IMG/VR virus record: IMGVR_UViG_3300036851_000259
Location: 1-26,932 of that record
Length of the DNA stretch: 26,932 nucleotides
Reading direction: 5' to 3' (one strand)
Origin: a virus
Positions 2,470 through 20,294 of this stretch are shown in pieces (position 1 is the first letter of the stretch; each line of letters begins with the position of its first letter). The notes below the pieces were generated by a model. That model had not been told where the DNA came from and searched no databases. It saw only the letters and a program-made list of their open reading frames with translations. Both the position numbers and the translations under genes were made by a program.

Positions 2470-3211
2470 CGACGACGTGATCGCAGCCATACAGATCATG
2501 CGGCAGGGGGTGGACATGCTCGGCCGTGCCTTGTCGCGGGTGACGACCGAGCTGGCCGAGTCGCTGCCCACGGACCGTCCTGAGAATTCGGCTGAGCCTG
2601 GCGAGTTCCAGCACGAAGACCAGGACGGGGACTTCCTGAGGTTCTCGGAGCGGAGCGACGGGTCTCTCCGGGCCAGCATCAATGAACGCCACGACGACGA
2701 TGCGAACCTGCATGCGGTGGACCTCGGCCAGGAGACGGTCAACCAACTAACACAGTATCTGGACCGGTACCGGACGGATACACCGTGCTCGTTCCCCGCG
2801 GACTTCCAGTGTGCTGGGATGCGTGGCCATGACGGACTGTGCGATCCCGATGCGGACGACATGGATACGCCGTTGGACGCGTGCCCGTGGTCCATCCGTG
2901 ACATGACCCCGGGCACAGTTGAGCACAAGGACTGTGAGAAGCCCGCCGGTCATCAGCTGCACCGGGCTGGCGAGCGTTCATGGTTGGAGAGTACAAGCGG
3001 GGCATACGACAGGCGGGAGCTGCCCGGTGGGCTGGAGCATGACGCAAACGCCGAGGAGCGCCAGCACACCCGCGACGTTCGGGCGTTGTGCGCCGGACAC
3101 TTCCCCGACCGGCCTGACGACAGCACCGGGTGCCACCACTTCCGTGTGAATCACGGCGCGCTCGGATGCACCGCGCCTTGGTGCCCGTGCGAGAGGCGTG
3201 GCGGTCGCTGA
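2462..3211 (+). CDS. Cys-rich hypothetical protein (249 aa)
   Basis: The start is ATG 2462, preceded by GAGGAGCAGAC, the same ribosome-binding string seen after both duplicated promoters. It overlaps the nuclease gene by 8 nt. Residues 1-35 look helical, residues 36-105 are acidic, and the C-terminal half carries ten cysteines (109, 117, 127, 141, 158, 210, 224, 236, 241, 243) and many histidines. Local motifs include EHKDCEKPAGHQLHR and CTAPWCPC. The spacing suggests two or more small metal-bound knuckles rather than disulfides, since it is a predicted cytoplasmic early protein. I recognise no named family. Confidence 0.8.
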   Translation: MRNDDVIAAIQIMRQGVDMLGRALSRVTTELAESLPTDRPENSAEPGEFQHEDQDGDFLRFSERSDGSLRASINERHDDDANLHAVDLGQETVNQLTQYLDRYRTDTPCSFPADFQCAGMRGHDGLCDPDADDMDTPLDACPWSIRDMTPGTVEHKDCEKPAGHQLHRAGERSWLESTSGAYDRRELPGGLEHDANAEERQHTRDVRALCAGHFPDRPDDSTGCHHFRVNHGALGCTAPWCPCERRGGR

Positions 3212-3408
3212 TGCTGGAGATCAATATGTGGCATGCGCTCCCTGCCGAGGCCGTCACTCTGGCCGTCCTGGTGGTCATCGCCCTGGTGACGGCCAAGCCG
3301 GGGGAGCGCTCGTTCTTCATCGGCATCGCGGTCATGGTCTGGGGCACCATCATCCTCACCGTGTTCGGCATCGCCTGGTATTCGGGGTGGGTGGTGCTGC
3401 GGGCATGA
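3211..3408 (+). CDS. Small membrane protein, two predicted transmembrane segments
   Basis: The start is ATG 3211, sharing its A with the upstream TGA (TGATG coupling); a second in-frame ATG at 3226 is possible. The 65-aa product contains two hydrophobic stretches, roughly AVTLAVLVVIALVTA and SFFIGIAVMVWGTIILTVFGIAWY, joined by a short basic loop (KPGER). This hairpin topology is typical of small phage inner-membrane proteins: holin-like, superinfection-exclusion or host-takeover factors. It sits far from the endolysin, so I do not call it a holin. Confidence 0.75.
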   Translation: MLEINMWHALPAEAVTLAVLVVIALVTAKPGERSFFIGIAVMVWGTIILTVFGIAWYSGWVVLRA

Positions 3409-5058: not shown

Positions 5059-5094
5059 AGCCCCTCAGGTCCAGTACATCCTGAGGGGCTTTGT
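5059..5094 (+). terminator. Rho-independent terminator closing the early operon
   Basis: AGCCCCTCAG (5059-5068) and CTGAGGGGCT (5081-5090) form a perfect 10-bp stem with a 12-nt loop, followed by TTGTG. The rest of the 134-nt gap (5004-5137) holds no gene. A TACACT (5102-5107) could be a -10 box for the lysis genes, but I see no matching -35. Confidence 0.75.
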
Positions 5095-5137: not shown

Positions 5138-6175
5138 ATGGCTACACCGCTCACCCCGGACCAGACGACCGCAGCCCTCAGGAACGAGGGGGTGACCTTC
5201 CTCGAATACCGCGACTGGGACACCCACAACCGCAACCACAGGGGTCCGTGGGGCCCTGTCCACGGCGTGATGATCCACCACACCGTGACCGGCCCGGAGA
5301 CCGATGCGGTAGCTCTCTGCTACACCGGGCACTCCGCATTGCCGGGGCCGCTCTGTCACGCGGTGGGCGAGCGTGACGGGCGGGTGTACCTGGTCTCCAA
5401 CGGGCGCGCCAACCATGCGGGACTGGGAGACGGGGACGTCCTGGCTGCCGTGAAGAACGAGGCTGCTCTCCCTCAGGACAACGAGACCGACACCGACGGC
5501 AACCGGTATTTCTACGGGATCGAACTGGCCAACCGCGGCGACGGCAAGGAGCCCTGGCCGCTGCGCCAGTACTGGGCTGCCGTCCGCTACGCGGCTGCGA
5601 TCTGCCGGGCCCACGGCTGGAGTCAGCGCAGCGTCATCGGCCACAAGGAATGGCAGCCTGGGAAGATAGACCCCACGTTCGACATGGGGCAGTTCCGGGC
5701 CGACGTCGCCACCCAGCTGCGCAGGCCGGAGACACGGACTCCTGCCCCGTCCACCCCAACCGCAGGAGACGACATGCAGTTCACCTCCCTCGCTCTGACC
5801 GACGCTCCCGAGACCATCGCGGCCGGACAGTCCAAGGTCATCTACTGGGATGCCGAGTACCAGGATGGTGCCGGTGACCACGGTGCGGGCGGCAAGACGA
5901 TCGTGAGCGGTGAGCACTTCACCGGCATGGTGGCCCTCAGGTTCGCCGACGAACTGCCCACCGGGGTCAAGGTCCGCATGGTCCATGAGCTGGACGCGGG
6001 CGGCACCAGCGACGACTTCACGGCTGCGCTCGCCGCCGACCTGGCCGAGCACACCGTGCCCTACACGGGCCGCGTGGCCGAGGACCGCAACCTGGTATTC
6101 GAGATCGAGAACAACTCCGGTTCGCCCATCGTCCTCAACTGGGCTGCGGTGCGCGGCGGCACCTGGGCTCTGTAG
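5138..6175 (+). CDS. Endolysin: N-acetylmuramoyl-L-alanine amidase (Amidase_2) with C-terminal beta-rich domain
   Basis: This zinc amidase should cleave the MurNAc-L-Ala bond of host peptidoglycan at the end of infection. ATG 5138 follows CGGAGA. The 345-aa product has an Amidase_2 (PGRP-like) domain at residues about 25-195. Zinc ligands are probably in GVMIHHTV (H47 or H48) and VIGHKEWQPGKIDP (H169), with further residues K175 and D178 of the conserved GHKEW..GKxDP motif. A Pro/Thr linker (about 198-210) leads to a C-terminal domain (about 211-345) rich in predicted strands, which is probably a cell-wall-binding or oligomerisation module. There is no signal peptide, so release needs a holin. 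It is the first gene of the lysis cassette, directly after a terminator. Confidence 0.93.
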   Translation: MATPLTPDQTTAALRNEGVTFLEYRDWDTHNRNHRGPWGPVHGVMIHHTVTGPETDAVALCYTGHSALPGPLCHAVGERDGRVYLVSNGRANHAGLGDGDVLAAVKNEAALPQDNETDTDGNRYFYGIELANRGDGKEPWPLRQYWAAVRYAAAICRAHGWSQRSVIGHKEWQPGKIDPTFDMGQFRADVATQLRRPETRTPAPSTPTAGDDMQFTSLALTDAPETIAAGQSKVIYWDAEYQDGAGDHGAGGKTIVSGEHFTGMVALRFADELPTGVKVRMVHELDAGGTSDDFTAALAADLAEHTVPYTGRVAEDRNLVFEIENNSGSPIVLNWAAVRGGTWAL

Positions 6176-6181
6176 GCCCGG

Positions 6182-6466
6182 GTGCAACCGCCGACAGAGG
6201 CGGAGATGATCAGGGCCCTCGGGGTCAAGGTCGACTCCCTCACTCAGGCCATTACGAACCTGAGCACCACCCTGGGTGGATACGTCACCCAGGAGCGGTA
6301 CGAGGCGGACAGGCGTCTGTCGGAACTCCAGCACACCCAGCTTGCTGAATCGGTGAAGGCGGACAGGGTCAAGGCCGAGGGGAACCGGCGCCTTGCCTTG
6401 TCCGCCTTCATCGCACCCCTCATCGTTGGACTCGTCATCTGGTACCTCACCAAGGGCGGATCCTGA
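6182..6466 (+). CDS. Tail-anchored coiled-coil membrane protein, holin candidate
   Basis: The start is GTG 6182, 6 nt after the endolysin stop. ATG 6206 with GAGG upstream is an alternative that would remove 8 residues. The 94-aa product has a heptad-rich N-terminal region ([23 protein letters not shown]), a charged helix ([13 protein letters not shown]...[13 protein letters not shown]) and one membrane segment near the C-terminus ([19 protein letters not shown]). It ends TKGGS. Single-pass proteins of this design commonly sit beside endolysins in actinophages and are often annotated as holin or lysis-accessory. The holin role rests on position and topology only. Confidence 0.8.
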
Positions 6467-7008
6467 TGGACAGGCGTGCGGCGCGCTACTGGGCGGTGCT
6501 GGTCACAGTCTCGGTCGTGGTGGCCTGGCTCGCGGTGTTCAGCTACCGGACGGCCGGTCGTCTGGACCGTGCGGAGAACGACAGGGACGCCCTGCGCAGA
6601 CAGGTGGTGCGCCTGGGTGGCACACCGGTCGCGGGCGAGCCCGGCAGGGACGGGGCTGTGGGCCCCTCAGGAGCAGCGGGAAGGGACGGAGCAGATGGTG
6701 AGGACGGCAGCCCCGGGACTCCGGGTGAAGCGGGACAGCAAGGGTCACCAGGTCCTGGTGGACGGCCCGGGGATGCGGGCGCGAGCGGCGCTCCGGGACG
6801 GGACGGGTCGCCCGGGCCTACAGGCCCACCGGGTGCTCCGGGGCCGACTGGCCCGACAGGGGCTCAGGGTCCGGCCGGTGAACGTGGGGAGAAGGGCGAT
6901 ACGGGAGAGCCCGGCGAGTCGGTGATGTGCGCCGAGGGGTATCACCCCGAGGACATCACCATCGCCCCGTACCAGGGCGTTTATCAGGTGTGCAGGAAGA
7001 ACGAGTGA
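6466..7008 (+). CDS. Membrane-anchored collagen-like protein
   Basis: ATG 6466 overlaps the upstream TGA. The 180-aa product has a short basic N-terminus (MDRRAARYW), an uncleaved-looking membrane anchor ([15 protein letters not shown], residues 11-25) and a helical stalk ([19 protein letters not shown]). Then come 32 uninterrupted Gly-X-Y triplets (residues 57-152), rich in GRDG, GSPG, GPTG and GEKGD, which are typical triple-helix formers. The final 28 residues contain two cysteines (C155, C176) that could lock the trimer or form a small cap. Collagen-like phage proteins are usually tail fibres. Here the anchor and the place between the lysis genes and terminase suggest an envelope role. 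There is no AxA signal-peptidase site. Confidence 0.88.
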
Positions 7009-7017
7009 GGAGGAGCC

Positions 7018-7500
7018 ATGGCCGACAGCGGCAACAACTTCCCGTGGGTCCGGCAGGAGAACGAGACCCCCCAGTCGTACGAGGCATTCAAGATCTACCT
7101 CAACCTTCAGGGCTCGCGCAGCCTGGCCAAGGTGTGCGAGGCGACGGGCAAGAGCTGGGCTCAGGTGAGCCACGCGTCGTCCAAGTACGGCTGGGTGGAA
7201 CGGTGCCGGGCCTACGACATCCACGTGTCCGAGGCGATGACGGACGGGCTGGTCAACGCCCTGGCCGTGAGCCGTGACAAGAACCTGGCCCTGGTCGACA
7301 AGCTCCGTGACCACCTGTCCAACCGGCTGGACCGGTTCATCGAGCGCGACCAGGATCCCTCCGTCCGCTGGACCCAGGCACTGACCGCCATGGCCAGGCT
7401 GGAGACCAACTGCTTCGCCATCAAGGACGACGCCAAGACGACTGAGAAGCTGGAGCGGATCGAGGCTCTGATCGACCGCGTCATGGCCGAACGGGGCTGA
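7018..7500 (+). CDS. terS: Terminase small subunit
   Basis: ATG 7018 follows TGAGGAGGAGC. The 160-aa product has the layout of small terminases: a DNA-binding helix-turn-helix in residues about 30-60 (SRSLAKVCEATGKSWAQVSHASSKYGW), then a long helical oligomerisation region (NLALVDKLRDHLSNRLDRFIERDQ) and an acidic/basic C-terminal helix (TTEKLERIEALIDRVMAERG). It recognises the packaging site on the concatemer and feeds DNA to the large subunit, whose gene starts 2 nt after its stop. The order small then large subunit then portal further supports the call. Confidence 0.88.
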   Translation: MADSGNNFPWVRQENETPQSYEAFKIYLNLQGSRSLAKVCEATGKSWAQVSHASSKYGWVERCRAYDIHVSEAMTDGLVNALAVSRDKNLALVDKLRDHLSNRLDRFIERDQDPSVRWTQALTAMARLETNCFAIKDDAKTTEKLERIEALIDRVMAERG

Positions 7501-7501
7501 C

Positions 7502-8971
7502 ATGAGGCCCACCCGGGCGCAGCTGGCACAGCTCAGCCCTGCCGATCTGGACCGGCTGGCTGAGCGTCTGGAGGCCATGGCCCACGACATCGAGACCGGC
7601 AAGGTCCCGTGGCTGTGCTCGCGTCCGGACTGTGACGGCAGCCCGCACAAGGGGCGCCCGGGGCCCCACGCCCGCCCGAGCCAGCGTCCTCCGGCGGATG
7701 ACGACTGGGACGTGTGGATGGCGTTGGCGGGCCGCGGGTTCGGCAAGACCCGTATGGGTGCCGAGTGGGCCATCGACCAGGCCCGGCACCTTGAGCGAGG
7801 CGCCCTGGTCGGGGCAACCGCGGCCGACACGAGGGACATCCTGGTTGAGGGGGAGAGCGGCATCCTGGCCTGCGCCCCCGCCACGTTCCGGCCCCTGTAC
7901 GAACCGAGCAAGCGGCGCCTGACGTACCCCAACGGCTCGGTCCAGATGTGCTACTCGGCCGACGAACCCGACCGCCTCCGTGGGCCTCAGCACCACTACG
8001 GCTGGTTTGATGAGCTGGCCGCGTGGCGGCGCCTTCAGTACGCGTGGGACATGGCGCAGCTCGGCATGCGCCTGGGTGAGCACCCGCGGATCTGCATCAC
8101 CACCACGCCCCGTCCGCTCCCGCTCATCAAGGAGCTGTTGAAGGACGGGATGTGCCGGGTGGTGCGGGGCTCGACCTACGACAACCTGCACAACCTGGCA
8201 CCGACCTTCCGCCGTGCCGTGGTCGCCAAGTACGAGGGGACCACGCTCGGCCGCCAGGAGCTGAACGCAGAGGTACTGGACGACCTGCCCGGCGCGCTGC
8301 TCACCCGGGCGCTGATCGACGCCGCACGGGTGGACGCGACGCATGCCGTCAACTGGCGTCTGCGGGTGGTGGCCATGGACCCCGCCGGTACCGGTCTCGG
8401 AGACGAGACCGGCCTGATCGCGGGCGGACGCGGCATGGACGGGGACGACTACCTGACCCACGACTGGTCGGACCAGCTGGCTCCCAAGGCCGCCGCGGTG
8501 CGGGCATGGGACCTGTTCGCGTACGTCAACGCTGACGTGCTCGTGTACGAAGACAACTTCGGCAAGGGCTGGGTGAAGGAAGTCCTCACCAAGATCTGGC
8601 AGGAGCGCTATCCGGATGCGCAGCGGGCAGGCACCCCGTGCCCGCTCGCGGAGGTCCACGCCAGTCACGGGAAGCAGCTGCGGGCGCAGCCCGTGGTCAT
8701 GCGCTACGAACAGGGCCGCGTCCACCACGTCGACTTCCTGCCGGAGCTGGAGGACCAGTACACGACGTGGATCCCCGAGGAGGAGCCGTCCAAGTCTCCC
8801 GACCGGGTGGACGCCGCCGTGCACCTGGTCAGCTACCTCATGAAGCGGTTCGACCGGGGACAGGCGGAGCTCGTATCGCCCCACGGGCGCGCGTCCAAGG
8901 GGACCAAGGTGCACCCGCTGTACGTGGCGCGTGAGGCACGCAGACGCCGGGAGATCGAGAGGGGGGCATGA
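7502..8971 (+). CDS. terL: Terminase large subunit (ATPase-nuclease packaging motor)
   Basis: The start is ATG 7502. The 489-aa product translocates DNA into the procapsid and cuts the concatemer. The ATPase domain has Walker A AGRGFGKT (76-83), Walker B YGWFDE (167-171, with E171 catalytic) and coupling motif ITTTPRP (199-205). The nuclease domain shows AMDPAGTG (D293), VLVYEDNFGKG and a final DRVDAAVHLVSYLM with the third acidic site. The N-terminal 70 residues include a small Cys/His patch (LCSRPDCDGSPHKG) of unknown role. The length is normal for the family. Its stop overlaps the next start (ATGA). Confidence 0.95.
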   Translation: MRPTRAQLAQLSPADLDRLAERLEAMAHDIETGKVPWLCSRPDCDGSPHKGRPGPHARPSQRPPADDDWDVWMALAGRGFGKTRMGAEWAIDQARHLERGALVGATAADTRDILVEGESGILACAPATFRPLYEPSKRRLTYPNGSVQMCYSADEPDRLRGPQHHYGWFDELAAWRRLQYAWDMAQLGMRLGEHPRICITTTPRPLPLIKELLKDGMCRVVRGSTYDNLHNLAPTFRRAVVAKYEGTTLGRQELNAEVLDDLPGALLTRALIDAARVDATHAVNWRLRVVAMDPAGTGLGDETGLIAGGRGMDGDDYLTHDWSDQLAPKAAAVRAWDLFAYVNADVLVYEDNFGKGWVKEVLTKIWQERYPDAQRAGTPCPLAEVHASHGKQLRAQPVVMRYEQGRVHHVDFLPELEDQYTTWIPEEEPSKSPDRVDAAVHLVSYLMKRFDRGQAELVSPHGRASKGTKVHPLYVAREARRRREIERGA

Positions 8972-9285
8972 TAGTGCACATGGGACACACGCTCACGCTG
9001 CTCCTGGCCATGCTGGCCACGGCCAGGCTCACCCGTCTGGTGACCACGGACCGCGTGTTCCTCGCGCCCCGGCGCGCTCTGCTGCGCAGGCTGATCACCC
9101 GGTACGGAGAGGATCATCTCCTGCCCTACCTGGTGACGTGTGACTGGTGTGTCAGCATCTACACGGGTAGCGCGGTCGCCTCCGCATGGATATGGGCGGG
9201 GCACACGCTGTGGTTCCAGGTACCCGCAGCGGCACTGGCGTTCAGCTACGCGGCGGGATTCCTCGCCACCAGGGAAGGTGAGTGA
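8968..9285 (+). CDS. DUF1360 family small membrane protein
   Basis: ATG 8968 overlaps the terminase TGA and follows GAGGGGGG; ATG 8980 is possible. The 105-aa product carries the DUF1360 signature, where a first helix (LTLLLAMLATARLTRLVTTD) is followed by YLVTCDWCVSIYTG (C58-x2-C61) and a second hydrophobic region (AVASAWIWAGHTLWFQVPAAALAFSYAAGF). This family is common beside terminase/portal genes in actinophages. It also occurs in Gram-positive chromosomes, where it is linked to membrane or sporulation functions. Its role in phage assembly is not established, and the CxxC may bind metal or form a disulfide. Confidence 0.85.
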   Translation: MIVHMGHTLTLLLAMLATARLTRLVTTDRVFLAPRRALLRRLITRYGEDHLLPYLVTCDWCVSIYTGSAVASAWIWAGHTLWFQVPAAALAFSYAAGFLATREGE

Positions 9286-17572: not shown

Positions 17573-18028
17573 GTGCGTAAGCGTAAGCCAGTTGAGGAAC
17601 GATTCTGGTCCAAGGTGGCGCTGCCCAACGAGGCGGGGTGCATGCTCTGGAAGGCAGCTCTCCCACCTAGCGGGTACGGCAAGTTCACGACTGATGGCGT
17701 TACCAGGTACGCGCACCGCATGGCGTATGAGTGGCTGGTCGGCCCGATCCCGGACGGATTTCAGATCGATCATCTGTGTCGGGTCCGGAACTGCGTAGCT
17801 CCGGATCATCTGGAAGCGGTGACGCAACAGGAGAACTTGCGACGCGGTGAGGCTGGGGCTAACAACAAGATCAAGACGCACTGCCCTCACGGGCACGAGT
17901 ACACCCCTGAGAACACGCTCGTGAACCGGTCCGGCAGTCGAGTCTGCGTCATCTGCAAGCGCGTAGCAGCGCGCCTCAGTGCACGTCGGGTACGCGCACG
18001 TAAGCGCCAGAAGCTGGTCATCCCGTAG
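17573..18028 (+). CDS. HNH homing-type endonuclease
   Basis: The start is GTG 17573, 5 nt after AGGAG (17563-17567); the longer frame from 17528 would begin inside the hairpin. The 151-aa product has the HNH_3-like core YAHRMAYEWLVGPIPDGFQIDHLCRVRNC (H48; catalytic D66-H67; N73), followed by APDHLEAVTQQENLRRG (H79, N88). The C-terminal zinc-ribbon-like part has CPHGHEYTPENT and VCVICKR (C104, H106/H108, C125, C128), as in phage free-standing HNH enzymes. The end is very basic. Such genes are mobile and insert between essential phage genes. It sits alone between two hairpins, interrupting the tail/head gene block. The enzyme family is certain and the target is unknown. Confidence 0.93.
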   Translation: MRKRKPVEERFWSKVALPNEAGCMLWKAALPPSGYGKFTTDGVTRYAHRMAYEWLVGPIPDGFQIDHLCRVRNCVAPDHLEAVTQQENLRRGEAGANNKIKTHCPHGHEYTPENTLVNRSGSRVCVICKRVAARLSARRVRARKRQKLVIP

Positions 18029-18706: not shown

Positions 18707-19510
18707 ATGAGCACATGCGGATGGACGGTCAACACCCAGTGCTGCCCCGACTGGGCTACGTACGACCCTGCGGTGCAGACCGCAGCCACGACGATGGCCA
18801 CGGCGCTGCTCGACCGGCTCACGGGCTACCAGTTCGGCCAGTGCCCGGTCACTGTGCGCCCGTGCGGCAAGCCCTGCCAGGACTTCCACGGATACCTGAC
18901 CTGGCCCGTGGGCCAGCCTTCTTCCAGCGGATCGGGCTCTCCGTGGATGATCCCGTTCGTGGACAACGGCATCTGGCGCAACTGCGGGTGCTCGGGGGGC
19001 TGCACATGCCGGGCCGCGTGCGAGATCTTCATCGGCGCGCCCGCGTATGCAGTGACGGAGGTGAAGATCGACGGCATCATCCTGGCTGCCTCCGCCTACC
19101 GTCTGGACTTCACCCGGTCGGGCGCCGTCCTGGTCCGCACGGACGGGGACTGCTGGCCCGAATGCCAGGACATGGACGTCGACCACGACGCCGTGGGCTC
19201 CTTCACGGTGACCTACTCACCCGGTAAGGCTCTTCCGGCCGACGCGCCGTTCTACGCGGGGATGCTGGCCTGCCAGATCGCCAAGGCGTGCATCGGCGGA
19301 GGTGACTGTGTACTGCCTCCGCAGCTCCAGTCACTGAGCCGGAACAACATCGAGGTGCAGGTGCTCGACCCAGCCACGCTCCCTGACTCGATCCTGACCG
19401 GGATCGCGGAGGTAGACAGATGGGTCCGCTCGGTCAACCCGGGCAACTTGCGCACCCGCTCGCGCGTCCTGTCCCCTGACGTCCGTCCGCACCGGGTGGT
19501 GACGCCGTGA
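18707..19510 (+). CDS. Head-to-tail adaptor protein, Cys-rich
   Basis: ATG 18707 follows GGGAAGGAGGG. The 267-aa product starts WTVNTQCCPDW...AATTMATALLDRLTGYQFGQCPVTVRPC, a pattern found in actinophage head-tail adaptors (the protein that sits under the portal). The middle holds a Cys-dense stretch NCGCSGGCTCRAAC. The C-terminal part (FYAGMLACQIAKACIGGGDC, LPDSILTGIAEVDRWVRSVNPG) looks helical. Sixteen cysteines in 267 residues is exceptional for a phage connector. It is followed by a GTGA-coupled gene. The connector role is supported by order and pattern; the reason for the cysteines is open. Confidence 0.78.
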   Translation: MSTCGWTVNTQCCPDWATYDPAVQTAATTMATALLDRLTGYQFGQCPVTVRPCGKPCQDFHGYLTWPVGQPSSSGSGSPWMIPFVDNGIWRNCGCSGGCTCRAACEIFIGAPAYAVTEVKIDGIILAASAYRLDFTRSGAVLVRTDGDCWPECQDMDVDHDAVGSFTVTYSPGKALPADAPFYAGMLACQIAKACIGGGDCVLPPQLQSLSRNNIEVQVLDPATLPDSILTGIAEVDRWVRSVNPGNLRTRSRVLSPDVRPHRVVTP

Positions 19511-20019
19511 CCATCTACATGGACGCGGCGCAAGAGCTGCTGCTCTGCTACTCGGCTGCTCTCAATGAGCTCCCCGCGGCGGATGTGCCGGGCACCATCT
19601 GTCTGCGTCACGGGGAACAGGTCTCGCCTCTCCTGGGTACCCAAAGTGATGAGTGCTGTGATGGCCTGGCCTGGGTGCGGGTCAAGTCCGTTGTTCCGCT
19701 GCGTGAGGAGACCCTTCCAGGCTGTCCTTCGGCCGAGCGCCGGGTGACCCTCGAAATGGGGGTGGCGCACTGTCTGCCGTGGGGGACGACCGAGACTCCG
19801 CCGACGTGCGCGCAGTGGACGGATGTGGCCCTGCGCTCCGATGCCTATCACGGGGCCATGGAGGCAGCCCTGTGCTGCCTCAGGGGCTCGATGAGCCGGG
19901 ATGACGCGGCACAGATCGAGGCAGGTCTGTACGAGCCCACCGGGCCCGATGCGAACTGCGTGGGCGGCACGATGGAAGTGATCGTTGAGACTAGCTGCGG
20001 ATGTGGAGTGACGACGTGA
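19507..20019 (+). CDS. Head-closure or tail-terminator-like connector protein, Cys-rich
   Basis: GTG 19507 overlaps the adaptor TGA. The 170-aa product begins with a helix (MDAAQELLLCYSAALNEL). It then alternates strands with conserved-looking motifs (PGTICLRHGEQVSPLL, GLAWVRVKSVVPL, RRVTLEMGVAHCLPW) and a helix (YHGAMEAALCCLRGSM), ending in a strand (GGTMEVIVETSCGCGVTT). That order, and its place between the adaptor and the gp10-like gene, fits a head-closure or tail-terminator protein. It contains twelve cysteines (7 percent). The specific role between these two is not settled by sequence. Confidence 0.68.
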   Translation: MTIYMDAAQELLLCYSAALNELPAADVPGTICLRHGEQVSPLLGTQSDECCDGLAWVRVKSVVPLREETLPGCPSAERRVTLEMGVAHCLPWGTTETPPTCAQWTDVALRSDAYHGAMEAALCCLRGSMSRDDAAQIEAGLYEPTGPDANCVGGTMEVIVETSCGCGVTT

Positions 20020-20294
20020 CGGCAAAGAAGATCGCGAAGGTCCCCGCCCCGGCCAGGACTCTGCGCGTGCTCAGGTCGTTCGACCTGATGCGCAAGGGCG
20101 AGACGTTCGAGAACGTGGTCACTGACCGTGTGCTGGCACTGGTCGGGCTGGGCTTTCTGGAGGTGGTCGACGATGGCGAGAATCCGTCTGGACCGGCCGC
20201 AGCTCAGCCGGGTGATCAAGGGGGAGAGCCGAAGGGCCCTGAGGCTGAGGGCTCCGCAGGTGCTGAACCGGGCGAAGATCCTCGCTCCGGTTGA
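20016..20294 (+). CDS. Small connector-region protein with low-complexity tail (92 aa)
   Basis: GTG 20016 overlaps the previous TGA and follows GGAG. Residues 1-53 are a compact basic/hydrophobic unit (TAKKIAKVPAPARTLRVLRSFDLMRKGETFENVVTDRVLALVGLGFLEVVD). Residues 54-92 are Gly/Pro/Glu/Ala-rich and disordered (GDQGGEPKGPEAEGSAG), and this part is encoded by DNA that overlaps the next gene by 122 nt. The disordered tail may simply reflect the overlapping frame. The first half resembles small actinophage head-tail proteins with no named family. Confidence 0.7.
   Translation: MTAKKIAKVPAPARTLRVLRSFDLMRKGETFENVVTDRVLALVGLGFLEVVDDGENPSGPAAAQPGDQGGEPKGPEAEGSAGAEPGEDPRSG

Follow-up and report, generated by a model that had tools for sequence, protein, structure and literature searches.

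The gene for a collagen-like protein at positions 6466–7008 (plus strand) of the window, the 26,932-nucleotide stretch of viral DNA analyzed here, and the small gene directly upstream of it (6182–6466, plus strand) form, as far as their sequences and those of their relatives indicate, a co-inherited two-gene envelope unit of wall length that travels with the lysis genes. The best explanation of the pair, which we regard as evenly balanced between right and wrong, is that it serves the final stage of lysis or release as a wall-spanning, membrane-anchored rod with its partner.

The collagen-like protein consists of 180 residues arranged in four parts. The basic N-terminus and membrane anchor (6466–6546, plus strand) were recognized from a hydrophobic span and the positive-inside rule, and the anchor corresponds to a hydrophobic helix of 20 residues (about residues 8–27). 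This is followed by a heptad stalk of 29 residues (6547–6633, plus strand) that ends in LGGTPVA; its 4-3 hydrophobic spacing, which is conserved in 38 members of the same class (class A, described below), is that of a coiled coil, and the stalk is the probable trimerization neck. The rod is formed by 32 Gly-X-Y triplets without interruption (residues 57–152; 6634–6921, plus strand), and the open reading frame matches the Pfam Collagen profile (PF01391) with an E-value of 1.2e-15. With 8.5% Gly in the other window proteins, Gly at these 32 set positions would occur by chance with a probability of ~10^-34. The C-terminal cap (6928–7005, plus strand) contains Cys155 and Cys176 within the motif C..GY...VCR, which is kept in all relatives, a set that was itself gathered through one cap motif. 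An N-terminal anchor, a helical stalk, 32 perfect Gly-X-Y triplets and a Cys-containing cap had been described in the original prediction, and this architecture is borne out.

An AlphaFold2 model of the window collagen was generated for a single chain using a six-sequence alignment. The model shows one helix from residue 3 through residue 49, with a pLDDT of ~91 in the membrane part, a rod that is disordered as a single chain, and a cap predicted to adopt a β-hairpin (residues 159–165 and 172–178) with a pLDDT of ~70. Confidence over the whole model is low (52.9), which is what one chain of a trimer would be expected to give. A search of the PDB with a profile of the cap revealed no solved relative, and the matches at E 0.2–1 are those of chance.

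The window collagen is a real, translated gene under purifying selection, because its dN/dS with respect to the sister phage L246 is 0.20 over the whole gene; by part, the values are 0.16 for the anchor and stalk, 0.22 for the rod and 0.27 for the cap. The gene order around the collagen is common to the window and two sister contigs, L246 and L247. The collagens of the latter two are identical outside the rod, and within it the sequence differs at equal length, a first hint that the sequence is labile while its length is constrained.

A tblastn search of 50,697 phage records with the window protein, or with its N-terminus and cap, retrieved nothing specific. The relative L003 was needed as the query to reach the isolated Streptomyces phages OnionKnight (gp25), Kromp (gp28), SF3 and SF1, which are the only four isolated phages of the phage collection that match the collagen family. 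Six IMG/VR contigs with the same architecture as the window collagen were found, and their cap motif, CPDGYSxQ...VCRxDG, served as the query in a scan of IMG/VR and of genome contigs. This yielded 119 distinct homologues with transmembrane segment, stalk, rod and cap from IMG/VR and Streptomyces genomes, almost all of them in Streptomyces prophages and related contigs. The window displays the hallmarks of the family, namely an N-terminal transmembrane segment, a heptad stalk ending in LGGTP/TPVA, a Gly-X-Y rod and a C..GY..VCR cap. In 65 of the 119 members (L002, L003, L006 and many relatives), the cap is followed by a proline-rich linker and a conserved C-terminal LDPxRRQY tail. The tail is absent from the window, L246 and L247; it is, therefore, a frequent trait that does not define the family. 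In phage SF1 (L245, 7524–8051; NC_028807.1, 38602–39129), the collagen region is annotated as a hypothetical protein on the opposite strand, and the SF3 counterpart of this gene is named 'collagen like minor tail'. A literature search on collagen-like proteins in Streptomyces phage lysis, with most subscription journals outside the search, returned no prior description.

When the 12 residues on either side of the transmembrane segment are compared, the N-terminal flank carries more positive charge in 118 of the 119 homologues, and the two sides are equal in the remaining one. The collagen protein is accordingly predicted to have an N-in/C-out orientation, as a type II membrane protein, and these flanks support the membrane anchoring that had been proposed. 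That the anchor is uncleaved, as was also claimed, is likely: its uncharged span has a median of 20 residues (interquartile range 19–21, none below 16 in the 119 homologues), a length more in keeping with a retained anchor than with a signal peptide. However, an A-x-A lies near the end of the hydrophobic segment in 51 of the 119 homologues, and a simple A-x-A test cannot settle signal-peptide cleavage.

Two classes of collagen are distinguished in the family. Class A combines a short stalk (31±2 residues) with a long rod, and class B a long stalk (66±4 residues) with a short rod; the window protein belongs to class A. Across the family, the gene directly 5′ of the collagen encodes a small single-transmembrane coiled-coil protein. 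The overlap of the two genes is exactly 4 nt long in 111 of 116 pairs, but only 1 nt long in the window, where the ATG of the collagen shares this nucleotide with the stop of the upstream open reading frame (TGATG). The window partner has 94 residues, with a predicted cytoplasmic coiled coil and a C-terminal transmembrane segment typical of class A, and matches phrog_38457 (1.2e-9), which carries the function label 'unknown'. Its AlphaFold2 model shows two helices (residues 6–49 and 58–92) with a pLDDT of 64.5. As a query, it finds only the sister phages L246 and L247, and the alignment of class A partners is too diverse for a profile search. The collagens of class A follow partners with a C-terminal transmembrane segment, and those of class B follow partners with an N-terminal one, for which the flanking charges predict an N-out/C-in orientation.

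Partner class and stalk class correspond without exception (48:65); outside this count lie three class B members without a clear partner call and three members without usable upstream sequence or partner open reading frame. Of the six endolysin types, five were found with both collagen classes, as was each of the four holin types. Because the endolysin and holin types mix across the classes and the pair is never broken, we argue that the partner and the collagen work together. Judged by these associations, the endolysins and holins have been exchanged many times around an unbroken pair.

Assignment of the partner to XhlA is not supported (best E 0.082, with 1 of 12 partners matched), nor is assignment to DUF2746, which is absent among the matches listed. 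The window partner has no significant match in Pfam, and a comparison of the partner families with Pfam holin models gave no convincing one. The class B partners (e.g., L083, 8234–8497, and L106, 8222–8485) end in LxxxVxxLGGTP, a motif that also ends the class A collagen stalk, and this likeness points to a possible shared origin of the partner and the collagen anchor.

The reach of the proteins was calculated with the standard helix rises, namely 0.15 nm for each residue of the stalk and 0.286 nm for each residue of the rod. In the window, the rod up to the first Cys of the cap (98 residues) and the stalk together give 32.4 nm. The 49 class A members in phage loci have a reach of 33.7±2.2 nm. 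For the 60 class B members in such loci, the value is 32.3±2.0 nm, and would be ~3 nm longer if their proline-rich linker is extended and not helical. The wall of Streptomyces coelicolor sacculi has a thickness of 30.16 nm (PMC7300013), and that of Streptomyces albus vegetative hyphae measures 35±5 nm in situ (PMC7541840). The reach is therefore approximately the thickness of the Streptomyces wall (30–35 nm), and is held constant in the phage members. The rod had originally been estimated at ~27 nm and placed in the order of wall thickness; the match with the wall stands, but the estimate counted the rod alone, and with the stalk the value rises to ~32–33 nm.

The observed standard deviation of the reach is 2.7 nm, compared with ~4.8 nm when the rods are shuffled, and none of 2000 shuffles gave a value as small. 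The same holds among representatives that are >30% apart outside the rod. The coefficient of variation of rod length is 0.16 in the family versus 0.34 in other phage collagen open reading frames; most of the 80 initial collagen loci were such unrelated frames, and served only as this length control. In class A, rod lengths differ already between close relatives, and the mean difference reaches a plateau of 7–8 residues up to a non-rod distance of 0.7. Class A rod length is, thus, labile but bounded. Stalk and rod lengths show no correlation within class A and a weak one within class B (rho -0.27), and the length compensation between the classes is largely one old contrast between two lineages.

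In the window, the pair is preceded by an endolysin, an N-acetylmuramoyl-L-alanine amidase (5138–6175, plus strand; Pfam Amidase_2, 8e-23; phrog_880 endolysin, 4.7e-59). The listed open reading frame begins at a GTG at 5093, and the ATG at 5138 agrees with the relatives. The endolysin and the single-transmembrane holin-like frame thus both lie immediately upstream of the collagen, as had been described at the outset. The small terminase subunit lies directly 3′ of the collagen gene (7018–7500, plus strand; phrog_6299, 1.1e-20). An endolysin is located no more than 4.5 kb upstream of the collagen in 101 of the 109 homologues with enough upstream sequence, and a canonical holin precedes it in 68 of the 109. 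OnionKnight, Kromp, SF3 and SF1 share the order endolysin, holin, second holin-like gene and collagen.

Tail genes are found within 9 kb upstream of the collagen in 75 of 107 relatives, because lysis follows tail in most of these phages. In the window, L246 and L247, the cassette directly precedes the terminase genes, and only these three have the terminase downstream. The stretch of the window upstream of the cassette yielded no tail gene; the tape-measure and tail genes are located far downstream, after a structural module with phrogs for the portal, major head protein and adaptor. The collagen gene of the window therefore follows lysis genes, not tail genes. Its placement in a lysis cassette, read at first from this one DNA, is now supported across many phages.

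Other features of the window were also recorded. A short open reading frame with two apparent transmembrane segments (3130–3408), located ~1.7 kb before the endolysin, has no PHROG or NCBIfam match; it is a possible canonical holin outside the cassette, none being seen inside. A membrane protein with weak similarity to DUF1360 is encoded between the terminase and portal genes (8968–9285; phrog_781, function label 'unknown'), and a free-standing HNH endonuclease between structural genes (17573–18028; phrog_826, 1.3e-56). The neighbouring frames at 18707–19510 (head-tail adaptor, phrog_783) and 19507–20019 are rich in Cys (6.0% and 7.1%), and the tape measure and the frame at 20001–20294 contain no Cys. 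The two Cys-rich products may constitute a disulfide- or metal-stabilized connector.

In the mechanism that we infer for lysis, the pair would be co-translated late in infection, after the endolysin. The collagen protein would reside in the membrane in the N-in/C-out orientation of a type II protein, with three chains trimerized by the coiled-coil neck. The Gly-X-Y segment would form a triple-helical rod across the peptidoglycan, placing the cap, with its presumed disulfide, on the outer surface of the wall or close to it. The partner would work at the membrane in a holin-like or lysis-regulating manner. The rod, by virtue of its wall length, would tie the membrane to the outer wall layer and, after the endolysin has cut the peptidoglycan, rod and partner would help to break or release outer material, an action comparable to that of spanins or of LysZ of corynephages. 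In Streptomyces, this outer material is a lamella of glycans that teichoic acids hold in place (PMC7300013).

The cassette position, the co-inheritance of the pair and the constrained reach count in favour of a role in lysis, as do the precedents LysZ and LysF1b. Against it counts that Streptomyces has no outer membrane for the rod to disrupt, and that class B copies are maintained on chromosomes under purifying selection with no endolysin detected nearby. Moreover, only four isolated phages matched, so that Streptomyces phages do not, as a rule, require the unit for lysis. A bolder proposal, that the pair is a two-gene collagen lysis device of Gram-positive phages and a functional spanin for hosts lacking an outer membrane, whose triple-helical rod is a molecular ruler tuned to the 30–35 nm wall, and which has been taken over by Streptomyces chromosomes, is possible, but we lean against it. 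Three functions had been suggested at the outset: wall-spanning lysis or release is now the best reading, the blocking of superinfection stays in contention as a rival, and the spacer holding lysis proteins apart has found no specific support.

Superinfection exclusion or surface shielding, in which the rods would carpet the wall and the cap would block or capture phages, or stop progeny from re-adsorbing to debris, is in our judgement unlikely. The cap is predicted to reach the wall surface, but it is conserved and not diversified. In most temperate relatives, the collagen gene is directly followed by the immunity/integrase region, a position in which accessory genes classically occur; the window copy, however, is embedded in the late cluster, and no attachment region adjoins it. 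Although the chromosomal copies could be kept for defence, the gene should be off in a lysogen, since its start overlaps the late partner gene and no promoter of its own is visible (a promoter and terminator scan found none, and is uninformative for a high-GC actinophage).

The chromosomal copies also bear on a host-envelope function (hyphal adhesion, wall stabilization or sensing), in which a host gene pair would have been picked up as phage cargo. Class B collagens occur on chromosomes in L209, L212, L218, L220 and L235 (L227 elsewhere), five of them with a recognizable partner gene, and three of these contigs share the neighbours of one Streptomyces locus. From reading the sequences, we take these neighbours to be fdhD, isochorismatase, sialidase and acyl-CoA ligase. 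The chromosomal copies that were tested have no detectable endolysin in their vicinity. The chromosomal collagens show dN/dS values of mostly 0.1–0.4, indicative of purifying selection, and a longer reach of 38–45 nm. In a sample of 150 genomes from the genus to which L220 belongs, 24 are matched by the class B anchor profile, with prophage and chromosomal matches pooled. That the pair is maintained without phage lysis genes speaks more strongly than anything else against a purely lytic role, and means that it can have a use outside phage lysis. The occurrence of the class B pair at one locus common to several Streptomyces species, and a reach that equals wall thickness whichever endolysin is present, favour a host-envelope function. 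Nevertheless, the great majority of the members are found in phage or prophage lysis cassettes, and the chromosomal copies form one class B subgroup that looks more like a domesticated branch, which makes a host-envelope function quite unlikely as an explanation of the family.

A tail fibre or minor tail protein of the virion, as which the family is filed in PHROGs (phrog_18350 'tail fiber protein', which matches the relatives over their full length, together with phrog_1806 'collagen like minor tail') and named in GenBank (Kromp gp28 and SF3 gp25), is highly improbable for a protein with a 20-residue membrane anchor and positive-inside flanks, whose gene follows the endolysin and a single-transmembrane partner even where the cassette is far from the tail genes, and whose rod length varies about half as much as that of other phage collagens. 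These labels are probably wrong, and most likely rest on Gly-X-Y similarity. The equation of collagen with tail fibre misfiles a distinct family of membrane proteins.

Whether Gram-positive phages need a third, envelope-spanning lysis step is an open question, to which LysZ and LysF1b gave the first hints. The unit described here is widespread, occurring in more than 100 Streptomyces phages and prophages, and has a measurable design rule, a reach equal to the wall thickness. As the rod can be changed by whole Gly-X-Y triplets in laboratory phages, the question is directly testable.

A comparison of the unit with known systems reveals partial similarities to several of them. The Scl/Lcl adhesins (NCBIfam NF038329, NF038330 and NF046116) are likewise collagen rods of the bacterial cell surface. 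Identification of the window protein as an LPXTG collagen adhesin (SclA/SclB) was rejected, with a score of 52.2 bits against a cut-off of 325, no LPXTG, and a transmembrane anchor at the opposite end. Collagen tail fibres (phrog_18350, phrog_1806 and phrog_6320) share the Gly-X-Y repeat, and homologues of the window gene are filed among them, but the family is set apart by its membrane anchor, its position in the lysis cassette and its constrained length.

Corynebacterium has a mycolate envelope with lipoglycans, which Streptomyces lacks. LysZ of the Corynebacterium phages CL31 and Cog is a single-transmembrane protein of 177 residues with an N-in/C-out orientation that has been proposed to be spanin-like in a Gram-positive host (PMC13056207). 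Compared by description only, it resembles the window collagen in size, in its single transmembrane segment and orientation, and in the company of lysis genes; in contrast to the window protein, no collagen rod is reported for it (PMC13056207). LysF1b of mycobacteriophages is a single-transmembrane, holin-like lysis regulator (PMC13056207). With it and with other single-transmembrane holin-like proteins of actinobacteriophages, the class B partner shares a predicted layout (N-terminal transmembrane segment, N-out/C-in orientation and charged cytoplasmic coiled region) and a place in the lysis cassette. The window partner, which belongs to class A and has its transmembrane segment at the C-terminus, differs from it in this respect.

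Spanins, both the Rz/Rz1 pair and the unimolecular type, have in common with the unit the end of the lysis cassette, an overlapping gene pair and an envelope-spanning protein with a length that matters. The collagen is indeed predicted to be an envelope-spanning, anchored protein at the end of the lysis cassette. The unit differs from spanins in that the host has no outer membrane and that the rod is collagen and not a helix; among the immediate neighbours of the collagen gene, no lipoprotein partner was seen. By analogy, the collagen unit may work like a spanin or like LysZ, a likeness of action that does not identify it as either.
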